Of a stretch of 53,441 bases of DNA, positions 46,924 through 53,441 are shown piece by piece (the stretch's first letter is position 1; the number at the start of each line of letters is the position of its first letter). The DNA is taken from positions 1-53,441 of the forward strand of contig WQVN01000004.1 in NCBI GenBank assembly GCA_009785795.1, in the 5' to 3' direction. Position numbers and translations under genes: made by a program. The stretch comes from Coriobacteriia bacterium. Lineage in GTDB: Bacteria; Actinomycetota; Coriobacteriia; WRKU01; WQUG01. Below the pieces are notes generated by a model. That model did no database searches, was not told the DNA's origin, and saw only the letters and a program-made list of their open reading frames with translations.

Positions 46924-46999
46924 TGGTGGAGCCTAGGGGGGTCGAACCCCTGACCTCATGGCTGCCAGCCATGCGCTCTCCCAGCTGAGCTAAGGCCCC
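46924..46999 (-). tRNA. tRNA-Ala (anticodon GGC), CCA encoded
   Basis: Minus strand GGGGCCTTAGCTCAGCTGGGAGAGCGCATGGCTGGCAGCCATGAGGTCAGGGGTTCGACCCCCCTAGGCTCCACCA; cloverleaf with G3:U70. Confidence 0.97.
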
Positions 47000-47079
47000 A
47001 CGCGTAAACCACTGAAAAAGTATAGCAGCTTTATTACGCCTTTGACCAGAGGGTCTATGGTCATATTAGAATGTCATCC

Positions 47080-48108
47080 ATGCTTTTCTCAGCGACAACA
47101 AAAATACTTACCAGATTACTGCGAGGTTCCGTTCGTGGCTTTGCCCTGTTCTTTGGCGTGTTTTCGGCACTCAATATTATCGTGTCTCGATTTGGCACTG
47201 CTCGCGCAGAAGACATCTGGTGGATTCAGTTCGACTATCTGCCATCACCGATAGTTGCAATGCTATCTGCACTGCTTGCAGTAACCTTGATTTGTTATGC
47301 ACTCAAGCCAGGAATGAGTCTTGTCAGAAAGATCGTAACGACTTCTGTGTGTATGGTGTATGCAGTATTCGCATTGGTCAATGTGCTTGAATACTATAGT
47401 CTGCTAAGCTCGGGTGCATTCACAACGCGGTTTCCTGTACCCTTTTCACTATTTATCGTCATAGGCTTTATTTTTATGGGCATAGTAGCATGGACTTTAA
47501 ATGAGCGTCGTTCGTCATTATTGGAATTTTCACTCATGATGATGTTTGCCGCTTTAGGGGTGCTACTTTTCCCCCTTGTGCAAATCTATACTTTTGGCTC
47601 TACTGATTATTCCAGGCCTGCTGACGTAGCTATAGTTTTTGGCGCGCGTGCATTTCCTGATGGGCGACTTTCCACGTCGCTGCGCGCACGGGTAGATCGC
47701 TCTATCGAGTTATACCACGATGGACTCGTGCCAAAACTTCTTTTTACGGGAGGCATTGATGCTGACGGAGTAAATGAGCCAGAAATGATGCGAGCTTATG
47801 CCATTGCGCACGGTGTTAATCCAGATAACATCATTATTGATCAATACGGCAATGACACTGATCTGTCAGCGCGAAATACGGTACCCATGTTGCACGAGAT
47901 GCAGGCAACACGTGTTCTTGCTGTTAGTCAAAACTATCATTTGCCACGAATCAAAATGGCATATCGGGCAGAAGGGGCTAATGTGCTGACGGTGCCTGCG
48001 TATAGTGATTATTTCATTCCAGGAACACATAGGAACCTAACAAGGGAAACATTTGCCTTCTGGGGCTATTGGTTGCGTTCAGGTGTCCGCGATTTAAGGG
48101 CGCCATAA
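47080..48108 (+). CDS. YdcF/SanA-like (DUF218) membrane protein
   Basis: DVAIVFGARAFPDGRLSTSLRARVDRSIELY, LLFTGGID, NTVPMLHEMQATRVLAVSQNYHLPRIKMAYR; start 47071 or 47080. Confidence 0.85.
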   Translation: MLFSATTKILTRLLRGSVRGFALFFGVFSALNIIVSRFGTARAEDIWWIQFDYLPSPIVAMLSALLAVTLICYALKPGMSLVRKIVTTSVCMVYAVFALVNVLEYYSLLSSGAFTTRFPVPFSLFIVIGFIFMGIVAWTLNERRSSLLEFSLMMMFAALGVLLFPLVQIYTFGSTDYSRPADVAIVFGARAFPDGRLSTSLRARVDRSIELYHDGLVPKLLFTGGIDADGVNEPEMMRAYAIAHGVNPDNIIIDQYGNDTDLSARNTVPMLHEMQATRVLAVSQNYHLPRIKMAYRAEGANVLTVPAYSDYFIPGTHRNLTRETFAFWGYWLRSGVRDLRAP

Positions 48109-48868: not shown

Positions 48869-49681
48869 ATGGTTGCAAAATTTTTTAGTGTGACTCATGG
48901 ACTCATGCGTCAGACATGGGACAATCGTGCGATAACGTGGGAATTCGCTCGTCGTACCCTGCACAAAAAGTACAAAGGAACAGCATTGGGCATGCTTTGG
49001 ATTTTAGCATTGCCCATGGCCTATGTCTTGGTGTTTTGGTTTGCAATTGAGATTGGCCTGCGTATGGATAGGGGTGACTACCCCTTTGTGCTGTGGTTAA
49101 TACCGGGCATCTTTTTGTGGCGCACCATTAGCGAGTGCCTTTCGCAGGCAGGTAATTCTGTGCGTAAGAATCGCGGGCTTGTGACAAAGGTATCCTTTCC
49201 GCTAATTGCTATTCCTCAATTTAGCGTACTCTCTTTATTTGTGGCACACATGGGTGTAATGCTGCTGGCGTTTGCCATTTTTATCGCTGCGGGGTATACG
49301 CCGACCATATACTGGCTACAGTTTTTCTACTATATCCCAGCAGCCTTTATTTTTTGCCTTATTGCGGCTACCTTTTTATCTGCACTTACCGCGTTCTCGA
49401 AAGACTTGGTGCAGTTTATTCGTGTAATGACGCAAACACTGTTCTGGTTTTCACCAATTCTGTGGCCAGCAAGCAATTTGGAAGGTACCTTAGGCGTGAT
49501 AATGCGCTTAAATCCTATTGCTTATTTGGTTGAGGGATATAGAGCCTGCATGCTTTACAATACATGGTTTTGGCAGGATCCTGGCTGGGCGCTATATTTT
49601 TGGGCTTTCATTATGATTTCTGGCGTTGTGACTATTTATGTATGGAATAGAATGTCTCGAAACTTTGCAGATGTGATGTAG
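48869..49681 (+). CDS. ABC-2 type polysaccharide/teichoic acid export permease (TagG/Wzm-like)
   Basis: LHKKYKGTALGMLWILALPMAYVLVFWFAIEIGLRM..YPFVLWLIPGIFLWRTISECL; adjacent Wzt-like ATPase. Confidence 0.9.
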   Translation: MVAKFFSVTHGLMRQTWDNRAITWEFARRTLHKKYKGTALGMLWILALPMAYVLVFWFAIEIGLRMDRGDYPFVLWLIPGIFLWRTISECLSQAGNSVRKNRGLVTKVSFPLIAIPQFSVLSLFVAHMGVMLLAFAIFIAAGYTPTIYWLQFFYYIPAAFIFCLIAATFLSALTAFSKDLVQFIRVMTQTLFWFSPILWPASNLEGTLGVIMRLNPIAYLVEGYRACMLYNTWFWQDPGWALYFWAFIMISGVVTIYVWNRMSRNFADVM

Positions 49682-50926
49682 GTGGCAGACATGAATGATG
49701 ATACGTGCAAACAGAACAATAAGGTCGCTCTTGAGTATGCTGTTGAGGTTTCACAACTCACAAAGCGATACAAGATTTATCCTAACGACATAAAACGTGC
49801 TTTAGGAACCTTGGGGTTCAAGGTTGAGCATAAGGATTTTGTCGCTCTTGACAATATAAATTACAAATTTGAAAAAGGCGAAGTTACTGCAATTCTGGGT
49901 CGAAATGGATCAGGAAAATCAACCCTGTTAAAGCTAATCACCGGTGTTACCTTTCCCAATAAAGGAACTGTAGAGACGCATGGACGAATTTCTGCCATGC
50001 TTGAATTGCGGTCAGGCTTTGATGCGGAATTGACTGGCATAGAGAACATCTATTATAAGGCTCTGACTATGGGAATCTCAGAAGCAGAGATCGAGCAAGT
50101 AAAAGATGACATCATTGAATTCGCAGATATTGGCGTGCACATTGACCAACCCTATCGAACCTATTCAAGTGGCATGAAGGCGCGTTTAGGATTTGCTGTG
50201 GCAGCAAATATCGATCCAGACATCCTTGTTGTTGACGAAGTCATGGCGGTTGGTGATGACATCTTCAAGATGAAATGCATTGCAAAAATGAATGAGTTTC
50301 GTCAGCAGGGGAAAACTATCCTGTTCGTTAGTCATAGCATGTCAACGGTAAAAGCTTTTTGCACGCGTGCTATTTGGCTCAATCAGGGCAAGCTTATGGC
50401 ACAGGGCGACATGGGTGATGTTGTTGTTCAGTACTCAGAATTTCTAAAGACTGAGCGCAAGCAAGCACGTGTAGCTGCTATTGAGCAGTCAGAAGAAGAA
50501 AATCCCATTTTGACACGCAGAGACATTGTTGCGCCGACCAAGTTTCGTTTGCTTGATGATTCTGGAGAGAGCATAAAGAAGCTTGATTTTGGGAAGCCTT
50601 GGGCCTTTGCATTTAACTATGAGGTAAAAAAGCCAATGGATAGCCTTGCGGTAGCTTTTTCAATCAGCAATGCAGAGGGTGTAGAGGTCTATTCGTCTGG
50701 CAAGCAATCCTTAAGCCTTGACAGGACTATTGGCAAACATAAAGCACGTATACAGTTTGAAGAAGCAAGCTTGATTCCTGGCAAGTACCAGATTACCGTT
50801 GAGCTATGGGACAATGTGTCTGGCCTTAAAGTACTTGCTGCGAATGCAAAGAAGTTCAACGTAGCGCAAACTGCCTACGTCGGAACAGGAATTGTGCACT
50901 TGAAGCACAGTGTGGCAAAGGACTAG
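49682..50926 (+). CDS. Polysaccharide/teichoic acid export ATPase with C-terminal Wzt-like domain (TagH/Wzt-like)
   Basis: ILGRNGSGKSTLLKLITGVTFPNKGTVETHGRISAMLELRSGFDAELTGIENIY; ~140 aa C-terminal beta-rich extension; GTG start. Confidence 0.9.
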   Translation: MADMNDDTCKQNNKVALEYAVEVSQLTKRYKIYPNDIKRALGTLGFKVEHKDFVALDNINYKFEKGEVTAILGRNGSGKSTLLKLITGVTFPNKGTVETHGRISAMLELRSGFDAELTGIENIYYKALTMGISEAEIEQVKDDIIEFADIGVHIDQPYRTYSSGMKARLGFAVAANIDPDILVVDEVMAVGDDIFKMKCIAKMNEFRQQGKTILFVSHSMSTVKAFCTRAIWLNQGKLMAQGDMGDVVVQYSEFLKTERKQARVAAIEQSEEENPILTRRDIVAPTKFRLLDDSGESIKKLDFGKPWAFAFNYEVKKPMDSLAVAFSISNAEGVEVYSSGKQSLSLDRTIGKHKARIQFEEASLIPGKYQITVELWDNVSGLKVLAANAKKFNVAQTAYVGTGIVHLKHSVAKD

Positions 50927-50980: not shown

Positions 50981-51709
50981 ATGCAGGTAGTCATCTTCAA
51001 TTCGGGTCTTGGTGTGCGCATGGGAGATGCGGGCAAAAAGACTCATAAAGCGATGTTTCCTCTTGAGGGACATGGCGGCGAGACTATTTTCGAGCGCCAA
51101 ATCAGACTGTTGAGTGATGCAGGACTAAAGGATTTTGTGATAACTACTGGTCCTTTCAAAGATCAGCTTGAGGCTGTTCTTGATAATCCTCAATATTCAA
51201 ATCTCAATGTTGAACTTGTCGAAAATCCTGTTTATGCGACAACAAATTACATCTACTCACTGTATTTGGCGCGCGATTTCATCACAGATGATGTCCTGTC
51301 AATTCATGGTGACCTTGTATTTAGCCCTGGGTTTTTGCAGCGCATTCTCAGTGCGGAAGATACTTCCTGTGCTGCAGTTGACAGGCAAGCAGCGTTGCCA
51401 GATAAAGATTTTAAAGCGCGCATTTCGAATGGGCTGATAAAAGAAGTTGCTGTTGACATCTTTGATAGCGACTGCGTTGCCTTTCAGCCCTTTTATCGTC
51501 TGCGTGCAGATGATATGCAGGCTTGGATGGCAGAAGTTGTACGCTTTGTCGATGATGGCAAGACGGGAGTGTATGCAGAAAATGCGCTCAATAGGCTAAC
51601 TGACCATCTTCAGATTTCTGAACTTTCATATACCGATGACTATGTTGCTGAGGTTGACACCCTTGAGGATTTGTCTGCCGTATCTAAAGAGGTAAAACTC
51701 TTTGATTAG
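50981..51709 (+). CDS. Nucleotidyltransferase, LicC/PntC-like cytidylyltransferase
   Basis: VVIFNSGLGVRMGDAGKKTHKAMFPL, FVITTGPFKDQL, NPVYATTNYIYSLYLARDFITDDVLSIHGDLVFSPGFL. Confidence 0.75.
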   Translation: MQVVIFNSGLGVRMGDAGKKTHKAMFPLEGHGGETIFERQIRLLSDAGLKDFVITTGPFKDQLEAVLDNPQYSNLNVELVENPVYATTNYIYSLYLARDFITDDVLSIHGDLVFSPGFLQRILSAEDTSCAAVDRQAALPDKDFKARISNGLIKEVAVDIFDSDCVAFQPFYRLRADDMQAWMAEVVRFVDDGKTGVYAENALNRLTDHLQISELSYTDDYVAEVDTLEDLSAVSKEVKLFD

Positions 51710-51823
51710 TGTCAGTTTTGAAATGTGCTGACTATGAGTGCTAGGGCAAGTGGACTGTACAGATAAGCGCTTTACGAGTTCAATAAGTTAATGTATGACA
51801 AGCAAAGGGTGAAACATACACAC

Positions 51824-53441
51824 ATGAGTGGACAAGTTATTTTTCGTGCATCCGCAATATCAGAGTTGCCAGCGACGGTCTTGTCGCTGCTTCCTGATGC
51901 GCACAGTAAGAAAGTTTTCCTTGTTTCTGGAGGTTCGTTTACCGACTCATTTGCCGAGGAATTGCAAAAGCAAGGTATTTCTTTAGACTCCTTTGATGAA
52001 TTTTCCTCAAATCCTACCTATGATGATATTCTTGCTGGACTTGATGCCTTTAAGGCATCGCAAGCTGATTTGTTGATTTCTGTAGGTGGTAGAAGTGCCA
52101 TAGATTTGGCAAAGTGCATTCTGCTTTTCTCATCAGTTCCAGACGAGCATTTTCAAATTGATGCTCAAGGCGACGATGAGTCCAGTGCGGAAAAGGATAA
52201 AGCTGAGCCAACGTATCTTACTGCAGAGTACAGTAGTTCCAGCATTCCCCATCTGGCCATTCCCACAACAGCGGGATCAGGTAGTGAGGCGACCACGTTT
52301 TCTATAGTTCACATGAAAAAGCCATATGTGGTTGATAGTTCACATGCGATTCCCGAGTATGTTGCACTTGTTCCAGAATTTCTGCACGGACTGCCATCCT
52401 ATCAGAGAAAGACTGCAATTTTAGACGCACTGTGTCAATCCATAGAATCGTATTGGTCTGTCAAGTCAACTGACGAAAGCAAGGCTTATGCCAAAGAAGC
52501 AATCAAGCTTATTCTGAACAATTATCAGGATTATTTAGCTTCTGATGATGGTGGTGCTGCAGAGGTAATGCTTGAAGCAGCACACTTGGCTGGAAAAGCG
52601 ATCAATATTGCAGGAGTCACCGCAGCGAGCGCAATGAGCTATCAAATGACTTCTCTATATGGTATTGCTCATGGTCACGCGCTTGCGCTCTGCATGCCAA
52701 AAGTCTGGCGCTACATGATAGGCCACTTGGAGCGTTGTTCTGATGAGCGAGGTACTGACTATTTGGGAGAGATGTTCGCAGAGCTTGATGAGCTTTTTGG
52801 CTTCAATGAGCATAACCAGACGATTGAGTGGCTTGAAGCCCTTGTAAGAGACTTTGACATGCTTCCTCCCAAGTCTAAGAGTGCTGCAGACATGGGAAAG
52901 CTGAGAAGATCTGTTACTGTAGCGCAACTTGCAAATAATCCTATTAAGCTGACTAAGAAAATGGTCACATTCCTCTACAGACAAATTATTCCTTCGCTGG
53001 CAAAACATAGGAAAAAAGTGAGTCCAGCGCGCAAAGCAATACAACGGTTAAAGAAAGTAAAAGAGGTAGCACGTCGAATATCTTCGGTACTCTATCGTCG
53101 TGCAAAGTTTGATCTGGACGACACACTGGTCTTCTTTGTTTCCAATCAAGGAAAAGATTATTCGGGTCAATATCGTACGCTCTTTGAACAGGCTCATGCT
53201 GATGAGCGCTTCAATCAACTTCATTATGTTTGGGGCTTTAAAAAGAAATCGGTTACAAATTATCGATTTTTAGAACGAAAAGGATCAACACGTGTTGCCT
53301 CAAGAAATTCTCGCCGCTTCATCAACGTGATTTCGCAAGCACGCTTCCTGTGCTTTGATCATTATTTGCCCTATGGAGTAAAACTGCGCAAAAATCAAAT
53401 ACTTATTCCACCAGATACTGACATAGATACTTTTTTTGAAA
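51824..53441 (+). CDS. Fusion: iron-dependent alcohol dehydrogenase (phosphonoacetaldehyde reductase-like) + CDP-glycerol glycerophosphotransferase-like domain (3' truncated by window edge)
   Basis: Own translation (absent from track): DLLISVGGRSAIDLAKCILL, LAIPTTAGSGSEATTFS, GIAHGHALALCMPKVWRYM; then LVFFVSNQGKDYSGQYRTLFEQAHADERFNQLHYVWGFKKK. No stop to the window end; start could be 51791. Confidence 0.8.
   Translation, partial: MSGQVIFRASAISELPATVLSLLPDAHSKKVFLVSGGSFTDSFAEELQKQGISLDSFDEFSSNPTYDDILAGLDAFKASQADLLISVGGRSAIDLAKCILLFSSVPDEHFQIDAQGDDESSAEKDKAEPTYLTAEYSSSSIPHLAIPTTAGSGSEATTFSIVHMKKPYVVDSSHAIPEYVALVPEFLHGLPSYQRKTAILDALCQSIESYWSVKSTDESKAYAKEAIKLILNNYQDYLASDDGGAAEVMLEAAHLAGKAINIAGVTAASAMSYQMTSLYGIAHGHALALCMPKVWRYMIGHLERCSDERGTDYLGEMFAELDELFGFNEHNQTIEWLEALVRDFDMLPPKSKSAADMGKLRRSVTVAQLANNPIKLTKKMVTFLYRQIIPSLAKHRKKVSPARKAIQRLKKVKEVARRISSVLYRRAKFDLDDTLVFFVSNQGKDYSGQYRTLFEQAHADERFNQLHYVWGFKKKSVTNYRFLERKGSTRVASRNSRRFINVISQARFLCFDHYLPYGVKLRKNQILIPPDTDIDTFFE

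Follow-up and report, generated by a model that had tools for sequence, protein, structure and literature searches.

A candidate phosphonate-tailoring locus at a Coriobacteriia contig end, with a cytidylyltransferase and a probably impaired iron-alcohol dehydrogenase fused to a truncated TagF-like stretch

The end of contig WQVN01000004.1 from a Coriobacteriia bacterium (assembly GCA_009785795.1) probably holds the start of a surface phosphonate tailoring locus of the 2-hydroxyethylphosphonate (2-HEP or HEP) type, in which a stand-alone cytidylyltransferase (CT) is followed by a fusion of a probably impaired alcohol dehydrogenase (ADH), more likely a scaffold than a reductase, with a truncated TagF-like stretch. 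The window analysed here is the entire contig of 53,441 nucleotides (C4, one of the 40 contigs of an 856-kb draft assembly that is 59.8% complete), and position 53441 is a true contig end. That the sequence comes from a single draft-genome contig counts against the reading as a whole. Precedents for activating a phosphonate with a nucleotide are PntC, which acts on AEP, and Fom1, an antibiotic-pathway enzyme that acts on HEP. The locus would be a HEP-type variant of the known Pnt phosphonyl tailoring. In the literature searched we found no account of an NTP_transf_3 cytidylyltransferase that has an iron reductase as its partner, whether as a separate protein or in a fusion.

The final genes of the plus strand are, in order, a TagG-like permease, a TagH/Wzt-like ATPase, CT and an ORF that is cut by the contig edge. 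The permease (48869..49681) is of the TagG/Wzm-like ABC-2 polymer export kind (ABC2_membrane E 3e-14) and has a galactan Wzm-like match (E 2e-9). It is presumed to be the first gene of the cluster, and its counterpart precedes the pepM cluster in a relative, G009. The ATPase (49682..50926, plus strand) carries a Wzt_C domain (E 2e-11) and matches the teichoic acid export ATPase model (E 4e-89). An ABC-2 permease and an ATPase with Wzt_C, the composition of a TagGH/Wzm-Wzt exporter, are thus present directly upstream of CT, and they support export of a surface polymer, in line with the transfer onto a polymer predicted by the first-pass annotation of this DNA. In G009 pepM and ppd are placed between tagH and CT; in the window they are not at that place. 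A DUF218 membrane protein gene (47071-48108) is found upstream of the exporter genes, and a tRNA-Ala (GGC) is present on the minus strand at 46924-46999, a few genes upstream of the cluster.

The CT gene is an intact plus-strand ORF (50981..51709, 242 aa) with an NTP_transf_3 domain (E 1.7e-10) and is 68% identical to the CT of the G009 pepM cluster. The motif G-x-G-x-R ... K reads GLGVR...HK, and the expected active-site residues are conserved. These include Arg13 (51017..51019), invariant in the alignment and the counterpart of Tde-PntC Arg15 (PMC6697681), Lys23 (51047..51049), which aligns with Tde-PntC Lys25, and Asp111 (51311..51313) at the metal-binding Asp position. Against solved structures the best match of the CT family profile is LicC, a phosphocholine cytidylyltransferase (PDB 1JYK, E 1.8e-14, nearly full length). 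The profile also matches IPCT (2xme) and PntC (E 5e-11; Rice et al. 2019, PMC6697681; PDB 6PD1/6PD2), which is of the same nucleotidyltransferase family. The earlier description of a LicC/PntC-like cytidylyltransferase directly upstream of the last ORF is therefore upheld. Because LicC, IPCT and PntC all stand at much the same distance from CT, the substrate assignment rests on context and on one residue. The residue is His109 (51305..51307), which maps in the profile alignment to Glu104 of Tde-PntC, one of two residues positioned for contact with the amine of AEP and the one paired with Asp105 of LicC (PMC6697681). The second amine-contact acid is kept (CT Glu200, Tde-PntC Glu196), so that CT has one of the two acids of the AEP site. 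A histidine at the amine-contact position fits the amine-free substrate 2-HEP. Structure predictions made from two-row alignments were of low confidence (mean pLDDT 57 for CT and 38 for the fusion) and were set aside.

The context of CT relatives, unlike that of LicC, is phosphonate metabolism. In a draw of 400 genomes from the same class, searched with the CT profile and pepM, CT was found in 8 and pepM in 15. All eight CT genomes belong to the pepM set and have the two genes within about 1.3 kb of each other (hypergeometric 4e-13 for co-occurrence, a value that ignores relatedness and so overstates significance). A wider draw of 399 genomes from the same phylum yielded one further CT only (G540). 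Among the source genome and 14 close relatives, pepM and ppd were over cut-off only in G004 and G009, the same two of the 14 that have near homologues of both CT and ADH. CT and ADH are flanked by pepM and Ppd in G004, G009, G040, G188, G223, G271, G349, G398 and a Chloroflexota contig, and Ppd is also found beside them in G540 and a Clostridia contig. The order in these neighbourhoods is CyT-PepM, Ppd, then CT and ADH. The last two are separate genes in G009, G040 and G540 and are fused at seven loci (G004, G188, G223, G271, G398, G349 and the Chloroflexota contig), with added LicD domains in the fusions of G349 and the Chloroflexota contig. A phosphonate reading of the CT/ADH locus, already put forward from the window alone, is strongly supported by this adjacency of pepM and ppd in relatives. 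In G540 a transposase-like ORF (IS110 type by eye, L074:1-669) adjoins the Ppd-CT-ADH genes, hinting at mobility.

CT relatives resemble PntC in having a pepM and ppd neighbourhood and in being fused to a substrate-making enzyme, but the partner is a reductase (ADH) whereas that of PntC is an aminotransferase (AEPT). In the same class, five further pepM clusters encode an AEP aminotransferase (TIGR03301 over cut-off), and the CT that they carry is more distant; at the ADH-type loci no AEP aminotransferase was found. Residue 109 is His in 11/11 intact CTs of ADH-type clusters and Glu in all six CTs of the AEPT type. Together, His109 and the ADH-type clusters devoid of the aminotransferase point to the 2-HEP type. 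We infer that CT is a CMP-2-hydroxyethylphosphonate synthetase (a CTP:2-hydroxyethylphosphonate cytidylyltransferase, or HEP-type PntC) beside a TagGH exporter, and that 2-HEP rather than 2-AEP is the likely substrate; the predicted 2-HEP substrate and CMP activation gain support from the same features. A simple sequence rule may follow, in which His or Glu at one position and a reductase or aminotransferase neighbour predict HEP or AEP surface activation.

In these clusters PepM itself has a Fom1-like cytidylyltransferase domain at its N-terminus (e.g. L035:10691-12016), and each cluster with CyT-PepM thus encodes two different cytidylyltransferases. Fom1, a cytidylyltransferase-PepM protein of fosfomycin biosynthesis, has the same kind of N-terminal domain, and its product, CMP-HEP, is the proposed product of CT. 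However, Fom1 is of the CTP_transf_like type, whereas CT of the window is a separate NTP_transf_3 protein. The PepM-linked domain could be the HEP activator or share that task. It is present in AEPT-type and ADH-type clusters alike and so offers no explanation of the difference between them.

A different substrate was considered. On this view the polymer is teichoic-acid-like and CT supplies it with an activated phosphate ester, which could be phosphocholine, glycerol-3-phosphate or a polyol phosphate, and the phosphonate genes of the relatives are neighbours by coincidence. The LicC and inositol-phosphate cytidylyltransferase profile matches are as good as that of PntC, a TagGH exporter adjoins and pepM was not found in the assembly. 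We consider this unlikely given that pepM is beside CT in 8/8 class relatives, that CT is fused to ADH at several loci and that the assembled source genome has no LicD.

Family searches of the assembled part of the source genome (about 60%) found no pepM, ppd or PhnW, which counts against the HEP-type reading and leaves a local phosphonate source presumptive. Because of this completeness and of the contig ending at the critical point, the missing pepM, ppd and phnW are not evidence of absence. The HEP could also be derived from salvage rather than from PEP, if environmental 2-AEP were imported, deaminated by PhnW and then reduced. A route to 2-HEP by phnW plus phpC has been proposed for genomes that lack pepM (PMC9381506). 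In G009 a second locus (L036:5025-11011, on contig C4 of that genome) combines genes for an AEP-type ABC transporter with PhnW (502 bits, over cut-off) and an intact ADH that stands alone, and is likely a locus for 2-AEP to 2-HEP salvage. Still, this origin of HEP is improbable for the source strain, as PhnW was not found in its assembled part and G009 itself carries pepM and ppd. That the lone G009 ADH has PhnW and an AEP-type transporter as neighbours is in keeping with an ADH acting on phosphonoacetaldehyde and speaks for the HEP-type reading.

The last ORF (51824..53441, plus strand) had been described as open to the edge, with ADH motifs including GIAHGHA, a basic linker and a TagB/TagF-like start, and both frame reading and a Pfam domain search agree with this. 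It is 3'-open, with 550 codons from the ATG at 51791 or 539 from the ATG at 51824; the frame has no stop, and the other five frames have 16-46. The start at 51824 is likelier because the window begins MSGQ... there and the G009 relative begins MSKQ.... Numbered from 51791, the domains are Fe-ADH (15-191, 5e-25), ADH_Fe_C (210-399, 1e-20) and Glyphos_transf (440-539, 1.5e-07). The basic linker is read directly at 53009..53107 around HRKKVSPARKAIQRLKKVKEVARR and is common to G009. No stop or frameshift separates the domains. The G009 relative (on contig C28) is an 821-aa ORF that aligns to window residues 10-549 with 56% identity, and because it carries the same fusion, chance read-through is excluded and the fusion is real. 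The remainder of the gene was not found elsewhere in the assembly.

The ADH part (51833..52987) is a group III iron-alcohol dehydrogenase domain with N- and C-domains over cut-off (PF00465, PF25137) and with GIAHGHA at 52661-52681. The family is of the same group III as phosphonoacetaldehyde reductases of the PhpC/FomC type (TIGR03405) and is placed by ppd and CT. Scores against TIGR03405 stay below the cut-off of 423.7, the best being that of the lone G009 ADH and that of the window copy being 104 bits. In contrast to those reductases, nearly the whole family has Gln for one metal-ligand His (Gln205 in the window), and the metal site of the family may be unusual and tolerant. The window copy has also lost a second His. 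Numbered from 51824, it has Asp201, Gln205, Ser269, His283 and GGRS in place of the Asp, Gln (His in G188), His, His and GGGS of intact relatives, and thus departs from the Asp, His, His, His ligand set and the GGGS motif. Ser269 (52628..52630) replaces a metal-ligand His conserved in 9/9 intact members and in solved Fe-ADHs. Arg90 (52091..52093) replaces a Gly of the GGGS nucleotide-binding (NAD) motif that is likewise present in all nine. The domain is probably not a working reductase, judging from these residues.

Similar damage is seen in the other fusions of this kind. The ADH domains joined to Glyphos/MptE modules (window, G009 and G349b) are damaged in 3/3 at Gly90, Asp201, His269 or His283, which are kept in the nine other family members examined (the G009 lone copy, G004, Chloroflexota, G188, G223, G271, G349a, G398 and G540; Fisher p 0.005, not corrected for relatedness and with positions chosen after looking). 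The contrast is not perfect, as the motif lysine (Lys97) is Thr in the G398 ADH. In the G009 fusion Gly replaces the metal ligand Asp201. G349b is a 1289-aa protein in which CT and ADH are both decayed and are followed by a full Glyphos_transf domain and an MptE-like domain; its ADH has lost the whole metal site and has a branch length of 6.3. The window and G009 fusions are possibly of one ancestor (tree with weak support), which gives two or three damage events. G349b lies directly beside an intact CT-ADH-LicD protein (L064:2863-10508), an apparent duplication in which one copy lost catalysis.

The TagB/TagF-like (Glyphos_transf) stretch (53108..53407) matches PF04464 with 31.1 bits (gathering score 22.1). 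The match covers about 100 residues, corresponding to profile positions 10-101 of 367, or the first quarter, and ends before the WHG motif. The likeness runs to RKNQILI and is followed by PPDTDIDTFFE (53408..53440) at the place of the catalytic TWHGTPLK of TagF-like proteins. The catalytic His444 of TagF is within the TWHGTP motif (PMC5974469) and has no counterpart in the window stretch. G009, which has VPEDINLEEF there, departs from TagF at this very point. An MptE-like domain follows, and the second catalytic His and the C-terminal half of TagF are absent; in the window both would lie past the contig edge. The MptE-like domain, also seen in G349b, bears in G009 a faint resemblance to GT42 sialyltransferases (E 0.05). 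The donor of GT42 sialyltransferases is CMP-sialic acid. The MptE-bearing genes are adjoined by Kdo genes in G009 and by nonulosonic acid genes in G349, and so the domain may transfer such a sugar. The last 140 residues of the fusion had no match among solved structures.

These losses could mean that the fusion gene is in decay, with both parts dead and the locus non-functional in the source strain. Two damaged ADH sites, the truncation of the TagF-like domain and the failure to find pepM, ppd and phnW in the incomplete assembly all suit that explanation. It is decidedly unlikely, however, because the frame is open for 539 codons, the CT active site is conserved, and G009 keeps the same domain order and the same truncation at 56% identity, which argues for selection. 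The first-pass annotation had instead proposed a working bifunctional enzyme, whose ADH reduces phosphonoacetaldehyde and whose TagB/TagF domain transfers the HEP group from CMP-HEP; despite the single frame, the retention of the fusion in G009 and the full Glyphos_transf domain behind the ADH-like domain of G349b, this is most unlikely given the ADH losses (Arg90 and Ser269 in the window, Gly for Asp201 in G009, the whole site in G349b), the lack of the WHG motif in the window and G009, and the MptE/GT42-like continuation in G009.

In the preferred reading, that of a HEP-type tailoring locus with a scaffold, the ADH part of the source strain serves more likely as a dock or scaffold for a transferase than for making HEP. 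G009 and G349 each have, besides the damaged fused copy, another copy that is intact (ADH or CT-ADH), and this raises the possibility of a pseudoenzyme scaffold. As a more specific and tentative possibility, the dead ADH might pair with an active paralogue and hold an MptE/GT42-like or TagF-like transferase near the source of CMP-HEP, allowing substrate channelling for phosphonate-decorated glycans. Reductase domains that are damaged and joined to transferases might reveal what holds assembly lines of this sort together. By gene content, PEP would be converted to phosphonoacetaldehyde in relatives by PepM and Ppd, which are encoded adjacently. The ADH family that accompanies CT would reduce phosphonoacetaldehyde to HEP, and the stand-alone CT would convert HEP and CTP to CMP-HEP and pyrophosphate. 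A transferase would then use CMP-HEP to decorate a polymer exported by TagGH, encoded directly upstream. The TagF-like stretch of the window would be what remains of a truncated domain that lacks the first catalytic histidine, and by analogy with G009 an MptE/GT42-like glycosyltransferase domain likely follows in the fusion protein.

A second TagF-like gene of the source genome (C22, 388 aa) was rejected as a candidate, being located among housekeeping genes with no hint of phosphonate. KDO-8-phosphate synthase, the marker for a downstream block like that of G009, had a weak match only (95.8 bits, cut-off 314), so the block is either missing from the assembly or absent. In G009, the only genome of its family with KdsA over cut-off, the Kdo genes of the phosphonate cluster (L035:3312-6348) comprise KdsA, KdsD-like and KdsC-like genes and a CTP_transf_3 cytidylyltransferase.
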